A stretch of DNA of 64,000 nt from Catenaria anguillulae PL171. Lineage: Eukaryota; Blastocladiomycota; Blastocladiomycetes; Blastocladiales; Catenariaceae. Shown in pieces: positions 44,234 to 50,566 of the stretch. The stretch lies in NCBI GenBank assembly GCA_002102555.1, contig MCFL01000033.1:1-64000 (forward strand), in the 5' to 3' direction. A program made the position numbers and the translations under genes. Positions within the stretch are counted from its first letter, which is position 1; each line of letters begins with the position of its first letter. The notes beneath the pieces were generated by a model. It was not told where the DNA came from. It searched no databases and worked only from the letters and a program-made list of their open reading frames with translations.

Positions 44234-45834
44234 TTAGCTGACCAAAAACATCAAGTCAAGAGGATCTTGATCATCACACAGCAACTTGCTTTCCGGAACT
44301 TGAAGAAACACTGCTCGACACGCTCGACAACATCCCCAAATCCATCTCGGGCTCGGCAGCGACCCGCACTCATGGAACGCCTTGACCTGGTCCTTGAACT
44401 CGTCAAACATGTAGAGCGTGTCTGTGGGCCCGCCCCATGCCTCCGGGTGGAACTGCACCGCCTTCCACCGGCCACCGGCTGCCCAAATGCCCTCATTCGA
44501 CCCGTCGTTGGCATTCTTCAAGTAAACCTGCCATCCTTCGGGCATGGTCGAGTCATCCAGGCAATACCCGTGGTTTTGCGACGTAATCACGCACTTGCCG
44601 CCGTGAATCAAGTCAATGCACGGCTGGTTGTGCCCGCGGTTGCCATACTTGAGCTTGTACGTCTTCATGCCCGCGGCCATGCCCAGCACCTGCACGCCCA
44701 TGCAAATCCCGAAAATGGGCGTTTGTGTGTGTTGGGCAAATGCTTTTGCTTTTCCAAAATGGCACGCACATGCTTGACGGGCGTCGTCATAAACTTGGGA
44801 TCACCGGGCCCATTGCTCAACAAGATACCGTCAAACTTGTGAGCGTGCTCGTCGATTGGGAAATCCCATGGCAACAAGGTCACCTCCGTTTCGCCGCCCT
44901 TGAGCGCCGACCGCAAAATGTTGTGCTTGACGCCATAATCCATGACTGCAAGCTTGTACTTTCCGCCCTTGCCAAACACTTGCGGAGCCTTTGTCGACAC
45001 ACTGGCCACCAAGTGCGGGCCCGATGCGGGCGGCGGCAACGCAACGGCGGGCCCGCCAACCACTTGCACGCTGCCCATGGTGGACCCTTGCTCGCGCAAC
45101 ACGCCTACGAGCGCACGTGTATCGACGCCCGAAACCAATGGCACGCCATGTGCGGCACACCACGCGCCAAGGCTCGACACGGCTTGCCTGTGAGAAAACT
45201 GCCAGCTGTAATCTTGTACAATGACGGCCTTTGCGTGAATCCGGGCGCTCTCGTAGTACTCGGAAAGCCCCTGCTCGAATTTGGGCGCAGGCACGCCGTA
45301 GTTGCCCGCGAGCGGTTGCGTCAGCACTAGGATTTGGCCCGCATAGCTCGGGTCCGTGAGCGATTCCGGGTACCCGACAAGGGCCGTCGTGAAGACGACT
45401 TCGCCTGCGGCAGACGTGGGCGCCCCATAACATGCGCCAGAAAAGGTGTGTCCCGTGGCGAGCGTGAACGAGGCGGGAACTGGGTGCTCCGGCGTCGGCT
45501 TGACGCGATGGGTTGGTGGGAGCGGGGCACATGTGGATGGGTGGTGGACAGTCGACGCAGACAGTGGGAGTGGGGAAGTGGTGGGTGCAATGGTCGCGAG
45601 CGAGCGACGCGTGAGAGAAGCTGCGGACAAGGCCGTGGACGTGGCACGGAAGGCGACTTGGCGGCCTTTTCGAGTCGAATACAGAGGTGTGTGTAAGCCA
45701 ACTACTCTGCCTGTGATCTCATCCCAGAGACGGAGAAATGAATGTGTGCGCGTACCAGTGCCAGTCAAGGTGGACTGAAGCGAACGCTTGATAGCCAAGG
45801 AAGATGCCGTGGGAACAAGGTTGAATAGCGACAT
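44234..45834 (-). CDS. CPA1: Arginine-specific carbamoyl-phosphate synthase small subunit (glutaminase), mitochondrial-type leader
   Basis: Glutamine amidotransferase subunit that feeds ammonia to CPA2 for arginine synthesis. A leader of about 95 residues rich in Ser/Thr/Arg and poor in acid (MSLFNLVPTASSLAIKRSLQ) suggests mitochondrial import. The N-terminal CPSase domain has GEVVFTTALVGYPESLTDPS and GNYGVP, then QDYSWQFS and GVDTRALV. The class I glutaminase domain has MDYGVKHNILR, LLSNGPGDPK, the nucleophile loop IFGICMGVQVLGMAAG and the His-Glu pair VQFHPEAWGGPTDT. The frame breaks at about 44734-44736, where adding one C to CCC on the coding strand restores QHTQTPIFGICMG. A stop 20 codons later would otherwise remove the active site, so a sequencing error is likely. 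The uORF at 45847-45945 precedes the start by 12 nt. Confidence 0.93.
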
Positions 45835-45846
45835 GATGATGTTTGT

Positions 45847-45945
45847 TTAACAAGAGGTGGATTTCCAGAGTTGGTCTGCAACGTAGTCGAGGCACACGAG
45901 TTCGAATGGGTGGTTGTAGGTGATGGGCAACAGCAATGTAGCCAT
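45847..45945 (-). CDS. Upstream ORF encoding an arginine-attenuator-type peptide (AAP), 32 codons
   Basis: A minus-strand ATG-to-TAA frame lies in the CPA1 leader and ends 12 nt before the CPA1 ATG. Its C-terminal 15 residues are CLDYVADQLWKSTSC, directly before the stop. Yeast and Neurospora AAP end in the same pattern: D-Y-(I/L)-S-D-H-(I/L)-W-(K/R) and then exactly four residues before the stop. The invariant Asp, Tyr, second Asp, Trp and Lys are all here with the same spacing. In those fungi the nascent peptide stalls the ribosome when arginine is high and lowers CPA1 translation. The N-terminal 17 residues (MATLLLPITYNHPFELV) are longer than usual. The region is intron-free and lies downstream of the likely TATA box. 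Confidence 0.88.
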   Translation of the reverse strand: MATLLLPITYNHPFELVCLDYVADQLWKSTSC

Positions 45946-46000: not shown

Positions 46001-46014
46001 GGGGGGGGGGGGGG
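46001..46014. repeat. G14 homopolymer in the CPA1 leader region
   Basis: Fourteen consecutive G on the plus strand, hence poly-C in the CPA1 sense direction, between the TATA box and the uORF. Length is unreliable given the deletion-type errors in this sequence. Confidence 0.8.
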
Positions 46015-46066: not shown

Positions 46067-46310
46067 CTTTATACCTCTGAAGTTTTTCAGGCCGCGCACC
46101 CACTTGTCGGCCGTCCGCTGATGTTATCTTGACGACTCATCTCTTTTCATCTGCAGCCAATCAGCTGTCCGCATACAGTCCAAAAGCCGCTTCAGCCGGA
46201 AAGGCAAGCCATTGATGAGATAACATCGCCGCAGCTGATTTTATCTACACGTGACGTTTGTCCAGTTAAAGTGCTTGATCTCGACTCATCTCCTTTCTTC
46301 AACAAGTGAC
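46067..46310 (-). promoter_or_regulatory. CPA1 promoter: TATA box and Gcn4-type sites
   Basis: On the coding (minus) strand TATAAAG lies at 46073-46067, about 120 nt before the uORF ATG. Upstream, GACTCATCTC occurs twice (46134-46143 and 46283-46292; the second is preceded by CTC, the first by GAC), and TGACTC lies at 46307-46312. TGACTC is the core of the Gcn4/Cpc1 site. A GATAACAT motif also recurs in opposite orientations. Regulation by general amino-acid control is inferred from these motifs. Confidence 0.45.
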
Positions 46311-47317: not shown

Positions 47318-49057
47318 TCAATCTTCATCGTCGCTCCACTCATCCATCCTCGCCCTCTTGACCGACGTCGTCGTCACGTCACTCTGCTCACCCTGGCCCG
47401 CCACCTCCCATGCATACCTTACCACCACTTGATCGTCCTCCTCTGGGTCGTCAAAACCATCCGCCCTACTGCCTCGCCTTCGCTTCCCACTCGCCGCCGC
47501 TGCCGCTGCCGCCACCGCATTCGCCGTGGCCGCCGACGTATCCCACACCACGACCCCGCCGGCCTCATCCGCACTCACCAGGCTCATGCGCTTGGCACTG
47601 TACACGAGGGAATTCACCGTGGCCAAGCCCGTGCCGACCTTGCGCGTGCGCGCGTGTGATGCACCAATGAGTCGGCCCGGGCGAGGGGATGTGAGCGGAG
47701 CAAATGCGAGCGGACGCCGCGAGGAGGAGGAGGTGGAGGATTCAAACAGGTCAAGAAAGAGCACGTCTTGGTTGCTGGGCACAAAGTAGCCAGGAGCCGA
47801 TGTGTGGTGCGTGCTTGTGTGCAAGAGGGCGGGTGGGGACGAGTAAGGCAACGAATGATGGGTGCGTGTGGTTGCCATCTATTCACAAAGCGAAGCACGA
47901 CAAGTCAGCTGAGCGCCATGGGATAGGGAACAACGACACGGTCAAATGAAAAACATGTACAAGTGCGTGTGCGTGCAAATCCCATACTTGTGTGCGCCCG
48001 CTGGTTCCAAGCATCAACACTGCGTACGCTCCGTCGGGCGCCACCGCAATGCCCGTGGGTGTGCCCAGCATGGCCTGTGACGTTCCTGCACGCGACGGGT
48101 CGCCTGCTTGCATGATGGCAAGCTGCGACCGCGATTGGCGCGTGTCCCATATGCGTAGCGTTCCATCGGTACTGGTAAACAACATCATGATTTTTGAGCG
48201 CAAAAGTCGGTGCACACAGCGCACAAGTTGGAGCAATTCAAGGAAAGAAAAACAGGGGGGGAGAGAGAATACGAAACCTGCCGGATGCAATCATGTACTC
48301 GTGCTCAGGAAACCATGCCACGCTGCGCACCTCGCCAGTGTGGCCGCGAAGCGCTTGCACACTCGCGGCCGAGCGCAGATCGCACAGGCGTACGTTGGGC
48401 TCTTGGGCGGCGGCGGCAATGAGGGCTGAAGAGGACACGGACAAGGCGTGGATTTCGGAGCCGAGGTCGAACAAGGCTGCTTCCTACACAAGGAGTCGAG
48501 ATTGGTGAGAAAAGAAATCCAAAAATGAATCAGCTCAAGCGTATAGGTACTTCAAGGTGGTTTGTGTCCCACACGCGAATCGAGTGGTCGAGCGAGCCGG
48601 TTAGGAACATGCCCGTGTCGTTTGGGTACCAAGCGAGCGAAGTGACACAGCTCGAGTGTGATACGTCTCTGATTGCCTGGCCCGAGTCGAGCGTCAATCC
48701 AATCGCACTAGTTTCACGCGGGAACAAAGTGATGACAAGACAATGATATTCGACATACGATCCAATGCTCGCTACTGGCCGAATCCGTCCACCGGCCCCA
48801 CGCACACTGACATCGTCGACTTGTGGGCGAGTGTCCCACAGAGCGATGGCGGCGTCGACCCCGCTGGTGAGCAGGTAACGGTCGTCGACGTGCTCGAGGG
48901 CGAGACAGCGGCACGCAGCCTTGTGGAAGAGGCGCAGCGGGTATAGGCGCGAGGGGGCGAGACGTTCGAGTTGGGAGGTGTGCCAGTGATGCGAAAGGGC
49001 GCGTGTGGGGTGGGTGGCACCGAGCGAGCGGGAACGGAGAATGGTCGTGTGGGGCAT
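47318..49057 (-). CDS. ERCC8: ERCC8/CSA-type WD40 DNA-repair protein
   Basis: Five exons in an intact frame: 49057-48759, 48668-48551, 48483-48278, 48171-47961 and 47878-47318. Introns have GTATGT, GTACCT, GTTTCG and GTACAT donors. The WD40 propeller is seen as YLLTSGVDAAIALWDTRPQ, then SLAWYPNDTGMFLTGSLDH with SIRVWDTNHLE, then EPNVRLCDLRSAASVQALRG followed by VRSVAWFPEHEYMIASG, and STDGTLRIWDTRQSRSQLAI. The C-terminus is acidic (DEWSDDED). W-YP-DTGMF and the acidic end are diagnostic of CSA (Rad28 in yeast), the substrate receptor of a CUL4-DDB1 ligase in transcription-coupled repair. Residues 270-330 contain an Ala-rich and Arg-rich insert. The early RSLGATHPTRALSHHW segment may serve as the DDB1-binding helix region; this is inference. 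Confidence 0.88.
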
Positions 49058-49357
49058 CTTATTGATTGGATTGGGAAACATTGCAGTGGATTGCATTGCA
49101 CAGAGTCATTTCACATTTGGGTATTTGCGTTTGTTCCGATTCATGTTTTTATTCCCAGGAAGAATGAGTCATTTGCTTTGTTCCTTTATTGGCCACCGAT
49201 CCGATCCGACTGACGTGTCTGAATATGTAAGCGAGGCAAACATGTCACTGTATGGAAACAGTTGTCATCACACCGTGACTCCACTTGCCAGTACGGGAGT
49301 AAATACATTGAGCTGAAGATCTACATATGTAGCACACCAGCAGGCTTGTCGGTCAAC

Positions 49358-50566
49358 TCACACGTCCTTGCCTTCCACAATGCGCTCGGTCGCCGCCCGA
49401 AACTTGTCCAACACAAGCTTTGCTTTCCCACTGGTGATGCTGTCCCTGGCCATCTTGACGCCCTCCTTGAAATCGCGGGCCACGCCACTGACATAGACGA
49501 GCGCCGCGGTATTCAACACGACATAGCCGACAATGGGATGGTCCTCGGGCAACTTGTTGTTGACCAAGTCGCTCAACACTTGAGCATTCTCAAACTTGTC
49601 GCCGCCCCTTACGTCGGCCAGCGATACACGCTGAATGCCAAACAATTCGGGCGCCACGACCGAGTACTCAATGTTGCCTGCATCCAACGTCCACACCTCG
49701 GTTTCACCCGCCGGTGAAATCTCATCGAGGCCTTCCTTGCCACACACCACCAAGGCACGCTGGACGCCCATCAACTTGAGCGACTCGGCAACCAACACGG
49801 CCAGTGACCGGTGGTACACGCCAATGACGGCGCGCGAGGGTGCGGCGGGATTGGCGAGCGGGCCAAGCACATTGAAAAGCGTGGGCACGCCGAGCTCGCG
49901 GCGCACGGGCGCCACGTGACGCATGGCCGGATGGTAAGTTTGAGCAAACAAAAACACAAACCCGTTGGTTGCGTGCAAGATGGCAGGGAGGTGATGTGGC
50001 TGGATGGCAGAAATGTGGCATCCGGCGGCCTCGAGCAAGTCTGCGGATCCCGATGAGGACGACGACGCACGGTTGCCATGCTTTGCGACTGTGCATCCAG
50101 CACCCGCAGCAACAAGGGCGGCCGTGGTTGAGACGTTGAAGGTGTCGTGGCCGTCGCCGCCTGTGCCGACAATGTCGCACACAATGGTGGTGTCGGTATC
50201 GGCGAGGGCAGGGCAGGGCGTGGCGTGGTTGCGCAGCACGTGGGCGCATGCGGCAATGAGGGAAGGCGAGTGGTCAAGGCCCGAAGTGCGCAGCGATGTC
50301 AGGAAGGCGGCGATTTGCGCGGGCGAGGCGTGGCCGGCAAGGATTAGGTGCAGGATCGAGGCAGCGAGGGAGGAAGCGAGCGGGACGTTGTGATCATGAT
50401 TGGGCTTGTCTGGGTGCTGGTGCTGGTGCTGGTGCGAGGGGGATTGCAGCAGGAGCAGGCGCTTGAGGAGCGGACGCAGGTCTTGCGAATCGGGCAGTGG
50501 TTGCTGTTGCTGTTGCTGTTGCATGTTGGCGTATTGCATTGATTGGATTGGATGTGTTGAAGGCAT
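49358..50566 (-). CDS. TRP4: Anthranilate phosphoribosyltransferase
   Basis: Transfers phosphoribose from PRPP to anthranilate, second step of tryptophan synthesis. Single exon, intact, 402 residues from ATG 50566. After a Gln-rich start (MQQQQQQQ) and an N-terminal helical domain comes DIVGTGGDGHDTFNVSTTAA, the PRPP-binding GTGGD loop with the NxST Mg site. Then AKHGNRASSSSSGSADLLEA, the anthranilate-site HGNR and SGSAD, and FAQTYHPAMRHVAPVRRELG, the RxxLG signature of the family. The enzyme is about 50 residues longer than bacterial TrpD because of the N-terminal Gln/His-rich part. Earlier codons to 50578 lack an ATG. TGAGTC (Gcn4-type) lies 44 bp upstream at 50610-50615. TRP5 is divergent, 2.1 kb away. 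Confidence 0.96.
   Translation of the reverse strand: MPSTHPIQSMQYANMQQQQQQQPLPDSQDLRPLLKRLLLLQSPSHQHQHQHPDKPNHDHNVPLASSLAASILHLILAGHASPAQIAAFLTSLRTSGLDHSPSLIAACAHVLRNHATPCPALADTDTTIVCDIVGTGGDGHDTFNVSTTAALVAAGAGCTVAKHGNRASSSSSGSADLLEAAGCHISAIQPHHLPAILHATNGFVFLFAQTYHPAMRHVAPVRRELGVPTLFNVLGPLANPAAPSRAVIGVYHRSLAVLVAESLKLMGVQRALVVCGKEGLDEISPAGETEVWTLDAGNIEYSVVAPELFGIQRVSLADVRGGDKFENAQVLSDLVNNKLPEDHPIVGYVVLNTAALVYVSGVARDFKEGVKMARDSITSGKAKLVLDKFRAATERIVEGKDV

Follow-up and report, generated by a model that had tools for sequence, protein, structure and literature searches.

A probable arginine attenuator peptide upstream of CPA1 in Catenaria anguillulae points to a likely origin of this peptide before the Dikarya

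The window, i.e., the whole stretch of 64,000 nucleotides that was analysed, is part of contig C257 of the genome searched, an assembly of 41.07 Mb in 457 contigs. On the minus strand it carries a gene for the small subunit of carbamoyl-phosphate synthase (CPA1), preceded by a short upstream open reading frame (uORF) that resembles the arginine attenuator peptide (AAP) of other fungi. The features discussed below are the following.

46068..46073, starting at 46073, minus strand: TATAAA, a likely core promoter element found by sequence scan
45847..45945, minus strand: AAP-like uORF of 32 codons plus TAA, encoding MATLLLPITYNHPFELVCLDYVADQLWKSTSC and stop, from translation and the score against known AAPs
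45850..45894, minus strand: AAP core, the last 15 codons of the uORF, CLDYVADQLWKSTSC, from a stop-anchored comparison
45862..45888, minus strand: DYVADQLWK, aligned with Asp12-Tyr13-Leu14...Asp16...Trp19-Arg20 of the N. crassa AAP
45847..45849 (reads 45849-45847), minus strand: uORF stop codon TAA, the arginine-dependent stall site predicted from the known AAP mechanism
45835..45846, minus strand: intercistronic spacer ACAAACATCATC, 12 nt from the uORF stop to the CPA1 ATG at 45834
44234..45834, minus strand: CPA1, most likely the small subunit of an arginine-type carbamoyl-phosphate synthase (PF00988 and PF00117)

The initial annotation of this DNA had described a 32-codon uORF ending 12 nt before CPA1, and the coordinates proved exact, with translation placing the frame on the minus strand; a plus-strand reading of 45847-45945 gives an unrelated frame and was rejected. 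The uORF and CPA1 share one reading frame and are separated by the TAA. The 5' end of the uORF is closed by an in-frame TGA, seven codons upstream of its ATG, and a sequence scan revealed this ATG as the sole one from 46080 down to the CPA1 ATG. Transcription usually starts about 25–35 nt downstream of a TATA box; applied to the TATAAA at 46073, this rule of thumb gives a predicted leader that would include the uORF. At position -3 there is a C at the uORF AUG and an A at the CPA1 AUG, so that the weak uORF start context, together with the A before CPA1, may fit leaky scanning. A poor uORF start context is common to the Catenaria uORF and yeast CPA1, for which leaky scanning is described (PMC7969011).

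Several other elements were observed around the leader. At 46001-46014, within the inferred CPA1 leader and between the TATA box and the uORF, there is a homopolymer of 14 G, read as C on the gene strand. Upstream of the TATA box (46123-46290, minus strand) there are three GATAA/TTATC sites, at 46245, 46223 and 46128, and two ATGAGTCG repeats, with TGAGTC at 46288 and 46139. We take the GATAA/TTATC sites and the TGAGTC repeats to be reminiscent of GATA-factor and Gcn4/CPC1 sites; no exact TGASTCA occurs between 46500 and 45834.

The CPA1 coding sequence spans two overlapping frames, 44665-45834 and 44234-44701, which are offset by a one-base break close to the GATase Cys. PF00988 (8.2e-41) and the initial portion of PF00117 are found in the ORF at 45834-44665, and the frame 44701-44234 holds the remainder of PF00117. 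In the database, the product is best matched by P0003, a carbamoyl-phosphate synthase from Catenaria anguillulae PL171 with 90% identity across 68% of the query, followed, among the matches listed, by Blastocladiella, Allomyces and Paraphysoderma. This agrees with the phylum proposed in the initial annotation from the letters alone, since NCBI places C. anguillulae in Blastocladiomycota, Blastocladiales. The first 26 residues of P0003 and another stretch of 238 are identical to the window ORF, and the differences fall where P0003 removes sequence as introns. The gene model begins at the same CPA1 methionine, leaving the uORF outside. The one-base shift falls just before the GATase active-site stretch GICMG (44665-44740, minus strand), which P0003 omits in an intron-like manner, and the frame break is likely a sequencing or assembly slip. 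P0003 also removes approximately 45480-45760 (minus strand); because the end of the removed region, RVKPTPEHPVPAS, resembles Blastocladiella RVTPTPETAVPAE, its first intron is probably too long. The N-terminus of CPA1 looks like a mitochondrial presequence.

A genome-wide search with PF00988 detected the CPA1 locus of the window and two more loci, on contigs C107 and C334, each in two pieces; the window holds the sole CPA1-type locus found by this search. The other two also carry large-subunit domains, and they are 98.4% identical to each other over the 3228 bases compared (C107:25046-29208 and C334:750297-754471). Their domains suggest a CAD-type pyrimidine gene in two copies, which are probably allelic or recently duplicated, in contrast to the single CPA1. 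Large-subunit domains also occur as a separate pair at C79:340218-342540. Given this pair and the CAD-like character of the other two loci, what follows the uORF is most likely a free-standing small-subunit gene of the arginine type. Upstream of CPA1, at 49358-50566 on the minus strand, lies a TrpD-like anthranilate phosphoribosyltransferase (PF00591, PF02885), and between the two genes there are ORFs, one of which (48530-49096) has a WD40 match.

To compare the uORF with known AAPs, we used as references the 25-aa S. cerevisiae CPA1 leader peptide, in what we take to be its sequence, and the N. crassa AAP, identical letter for letter to PDB 2xl1. The three peptides were aligned at their stop codons, and BLOSUM62 scores were summed over the last 15 residues. 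The Catenaria core has 7/15 identities to the S. cerevisiae AAP and 5/15 to the N. crassa AAP, and the sums are 51 for uORF and yeast, 36 for uORF and N. crassa, and 49 for N. crassa and yeast. By this measure, the uORF core is as close to the yeast AAP as the N. crassa AAP is. The yeast peptide, the nearer of the two references, shares with it the first Cys of the core and the Lys after Trp. The combined score of the uORF against the two AAPs is 87, while the window's 1902 remaining open 15-mers anchored at a stop reach a maximum of 27 with a mean of -30 (z 8.4); among all 1903, 762 have an in-frame ATG. The exact tail for a score of 87 with random residues is 1.4-1.6e-9 per 15-mer, corresponding to 3e-6 expected across the window. 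The match to the ascomycete AAP claimed from the letters alone, i.e., Asp-Tyr, a second Asp, Trp-Lys and four residues to the stop, is thus borne out by the alignment.

The N. crassa arg-2 AAP (24 aa; PF08252) is likewise encoded by a uORF directly before the CPS-A small subunit, and shares with the Catenaria peptide Asp-Tyr, the second Asp, Trp followed by a basic residue, and the four residues to the stop. In contrast to its 24 residues the uORF has 32, with the extra length all N-terminal, and it carries Leu for Gln before Asp, Gln for His, and a C-terminal Cys. When compared to S. cerevisiae CPA1, the Catenaria locus differs in the longer N-terminus of the peptide, in the 12-nt spacer and, by inference, in the presequence-like start of CPA1. 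A review names Asp12, Tyr13, residue 14 and Trp19 as critical in the AAP, and prints residue 14 as Lys14 where the sequence has Leu14 (PMC3130931). Their counterparts in the uORF are D20, Y21, V22 and W27, of which D20, Y21 and W27 stand at -13, -12 and -6 from the stop, with the same spacing in all three peptides. In yeast, the change D13N abolishes the arginine response (PMC7969011).

The uORF precedes a CPS-A small-subunit gene, keeps the spacing of the critical residues and has a core similarity above chance. On these sequence features we regard it as a member of the AAP family, even though it misses the threshold of the Pfam model. PF08252 (Leader_CPA1) detects the two references with 56 and 58.8 bits; it does not match the whole 32-aa peptide, which has no Pfam match of any kind, and a PF08252 search of the whole genome gave no match. 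With the last 23 residues alone, a trim chosen after the whole peptide had failed, PF08252 scored 13.2 bits (E 0.061), below the cut-off of 18.5, and was the sole family reported at E<=10. The missed gathering score is a matter of the detection threshold of the model and not a biological feature. A sequence search of the PDB with the uORF peptide gave two weak matches to Elongator proteins (E 0.42-0.43), which were taken as chance.

We also searched both strands of the genome for the motif. DYxxDxxW followed by AAR/AGR (GAYTAYN6GAYN6TGGARR) has one match, the uORF, and DYxxDxxW followed by CGN has one, on contig C24. The latter was rejected as an AAP: it lies in an open frame of 45 residues with no methionine, with 24 residues after the W, and not at the end of an ORF. 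Reversed-pattern controls gave zero matches in either motif search. Since about 2.4 chance matches are expected per pattern under uniform base composition, the argument is the place of the motif and not its rarity: of the two DYxxDxxW[KR] matches in 41 Mb, just the one in the uORF sits at an ORF end.

Based on this evidence, we are confident that the uORF encodes a genuine arginine attenuator peptide, one that shares its ancestry with the ascomycete and basidiomycete AAP and would stall ribosomes with arginine and block CPA1. It is highly improbable that Blastocladiomycota evolved an arginine-stalling uORF independently, AAP-like in function and not homologous. Such convergence could draw on the small number of residues reported as critical (PMC3130931), since a short motif of this kind could arise twice, and on the N-terminal half, in which the first 17 residues correspond to nothing in either reference. 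Against it, when the positions aligned to Asp12, Tyr13, Leu14 and Trp19 are left out, the remaining 11 still match with a tail of 1.2e-4, a result more in keeping with homology than with convergence on a minimal motif; the gene, the place and the distance from Trp to stop are also equal in all three peptides.

It is likewise highly improbable that the uORF is a decayed AAP that lowers CPA1 translation constitutively with no response to arginine. Such decay would fit the sub-threshold PF08252 score, the frame break in the assembled CPA1, and the changes at two positions common to both references, where Gln before Asp and His after the second Asp are replaced by Leu and Gln. However, all residues called critical in the review are kept or conservatively replaced (PMC3130931), and drift is unlikely to spare D, Y, D, W and K at the exact distance from the stop.

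To examine the relatives, 223 CPA1 homologues were listed from two protein searches (the best 120 of 7761 and the best 120 of 7999 matches). One of them, P0006, is the annotated CPA1 of Paraphysoderma sedebokerense (Blastocladiomycota, class Physodermatomycetes), which begins MYSAYTHACEKVQLDYVS / MYSAYTHACEKVQLDYVSRNTLSEL... and contains VQLDYVS in an N-terminal extension, with 38 residues preceding the apparent true start, a methionine at residue 39. P0047, the closest relative of P0006 among the matches listed, aligns only from P0006 residue 52. VQLDYVS scores 23 against VCLDYVA of the Catenaria peptide, when compared to 15 for the best stretch in the other 222 proteins listed. This 7-mer was chosen after the match had been seen, and the scan took in the 11,449 positions that precede the enzyme domain, the start of which was set by a rough pattern or else at residue 60. 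By chance, a score of this level is expected at 1.6e-5 per position, which amounts to about 0.18 for all 11,449 positions; for the 283 that belong to the three other Blastocladiomycota, the figure is about 0.004. Among the 223 homologues listed, P0006 alone carries an N-terminal extension with an AAP-like stretch; other loose-regex matches fell within the enzyme domain or, for P0126, at the third residue, and were rejected. The extension of P0006 is apparently an AAP uORF that the gene predictor joined to CPA1.

AAP-like VQLDYVS was thus seen in one of the three other Blastocladiomycota gene models; no AAP is visible in those of Blastocladiella and Allomyces, which are uninformative because they apparently start with CPA1 itself. 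On conservation in close relatives, by which the initial annotation had proposed to check the uORF, two of the four Blastocladiomycota species give evidence, the second of them via a gene model. A second haplotype of the Catenaria leader, as a further conservation test, was not found in the assembly. Leu replaces Gln before Asp in both Catenaria and Paraphysoderma, which belong to two different classes. If the P0006 extension is an AAP, Paraphysoderma has 14 residues before this Asp, close to the 11 and 12 of the known peptides, so the long N-terminal half is probably peculiar to Catenaria. The initial annotation was correct that this half is longer and unlike the two references; its suggestion that this would show which residues matter did not hold to the same extent, as the half alone says little about them.

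An IMG/VR search with P0006 returned one contig (L033:3001-4047) whose CPS small subunit shares 50% identity with the Paraphysoderma protein; the plus-strand frames of this contig contain no AAP-like motif. The match region is open without introns and has a long branch in the tree. We used this sequence as the outgroup of a quick maximum-likelihood CPA1 tree of 44 hand-picked rows (43 homologues and the outgroup), in which basidiomycetes are absent. Catenaria, Blastocladiella and Allomyces form a group with an SH-aLRT of 100, which is joined by Paraphysoderma and an environmental sequence at 92. Seven ascomycetes constitute a separate group (100) and fifteen chytrids another (99). Four Zoopagomycota stand beside Blastocladiomycota at 85-87, a position that differs from the usual species tree, and the long end branch of Catenaria (1.06) and the long outgroup are weak points of the tree. 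Vertical descent of the Catenaria CPA1 would be the simplest reading of this topology. It is very improbable that CPA1 and its leader were acquired together by horizontal transfer from a Dikarya fungus, which would make the AAP uninformative on age: the four Blastocladiomycota CPA1s and the environmental sequence fall together, apart from the seven ascomycetes, and this grouping argues against transfer from an ascomycete. It is scarcely conceivable that the uORF is a chance ORF or lies outside the mRNA, since, common as uORFs are in eukaryotic leaders, a random tail of 1.4e-9 per 15-mer leaves 3e-6 expected in the window and the TATA box lies 5' of the uORF.

Under the AAP reading, we infer that the uORF is transcribed and translated and that it stalls ribosomes in an arginine-dependent manner, possibly with nonsense-mediated decay. 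Scanning ribosomes would either translate the uORF from its weak-context AUG or leak past it to the CPA1 AUG. With abundant arginine, the nascent CLDYVADQLWKSTSC in the exit tunnel and free arginine would together block the peptidyl transferase centre, and the ribosome would stall with TAA in the A site. The ribosome stalled at the uORF stop would cover the CPA1 AUG, only 12 nt away, and block scanning, while reinitiation over the 12-nt spacer would be unlikely. The output of CPA1, and hence arginine synthesis, would fall. The exit tunnel is lined in part by the uL22 stretch RRRTYRAHGRIN. In Catenaria, this stretch is identical to the solved chain 60S ribosomal protein L17-A (8cgn_B), and with the uL22 hairpin conserved there is no objection from the ribosomal side. 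The mechanism follows that described for AAP in PMC11550727, and a transcript on which an AAP stalls ribosomes also becomes open to nonsense-mediated decay (PMC2075485).

Small-molecule sensing by a nascent peptide has a textbook example in the AAP. Other such peptides, TnaC and the SAM-decarboxylase uORF peptide, respond to other ligands and act on other genes, and we know of no sequence relation between them and the AAP. As in the AAP, nascent chain and small molecule together stall the ribosome; the likeness of TnaC to the AAP is drawn in PMC10501990, and the SAM-decarboxylase uORF peptide is treated as an arrest peptide in PMC2075485.

The AAP sequences and experiments behind our comparison come from Ascomycota and Basidiomycota. 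The initial annotation had named AAP in basidiomycetes as well, and PMC7049704 confirms this with the CPA1/arg-2 uORF, conserved and functional in Cryptococcus, N. crassa and yeast. There, the Cryptococcus CPA1 uORF is a conserved, ribosome-occupied AAP with a translationally repressed main ORF, and the CPA1 transcript is up 5-fold without Upf1; we liken it to the Catenaria uORF by this description and not by sequence. As far as the literature searched shows, the AAP is known in both Dikarya phyla, and the Catenaria uORF would add a zoosporic phylum. We found no report of AAP in Blastocladiomycota, chytrids, Mucoromycota or other early-diverging fungi in the literature searched, which covers AAP thinly, and priority is not claimed.

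That the AAP predates the Dikarya, as proposed in the initial annotation, follows if the peptide is homologous, and the Blastocladiomycota CPA1s group apart from those of Ascomycota. We consider it likely that the ancestor common to Blastocladiomycota and Dikarya already possessed the AAP, which would place this peptide among the oldest sequence-conserved metabolite-sensing nascent peptides of eukaryotes, that Blastocladiomycota have their own version with Leu before Asp-Tyr, and that Catenaria added the long N-terminal half. The deep splits among fungi are dated to roughly 0.5-1 billion years (PMC8371127). If true, the AAP of a zoosporic phylum would place the origin of this switch before the Dikarya. 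The uORF is also a natural variant in which D, Y, D, W and K/R are kept and their neighbours changed, and may help to sort required from dispensable residues. Furthermore, the age of the AAP switch becomes testable from the CPA1 leaders of early-diverging fungi.
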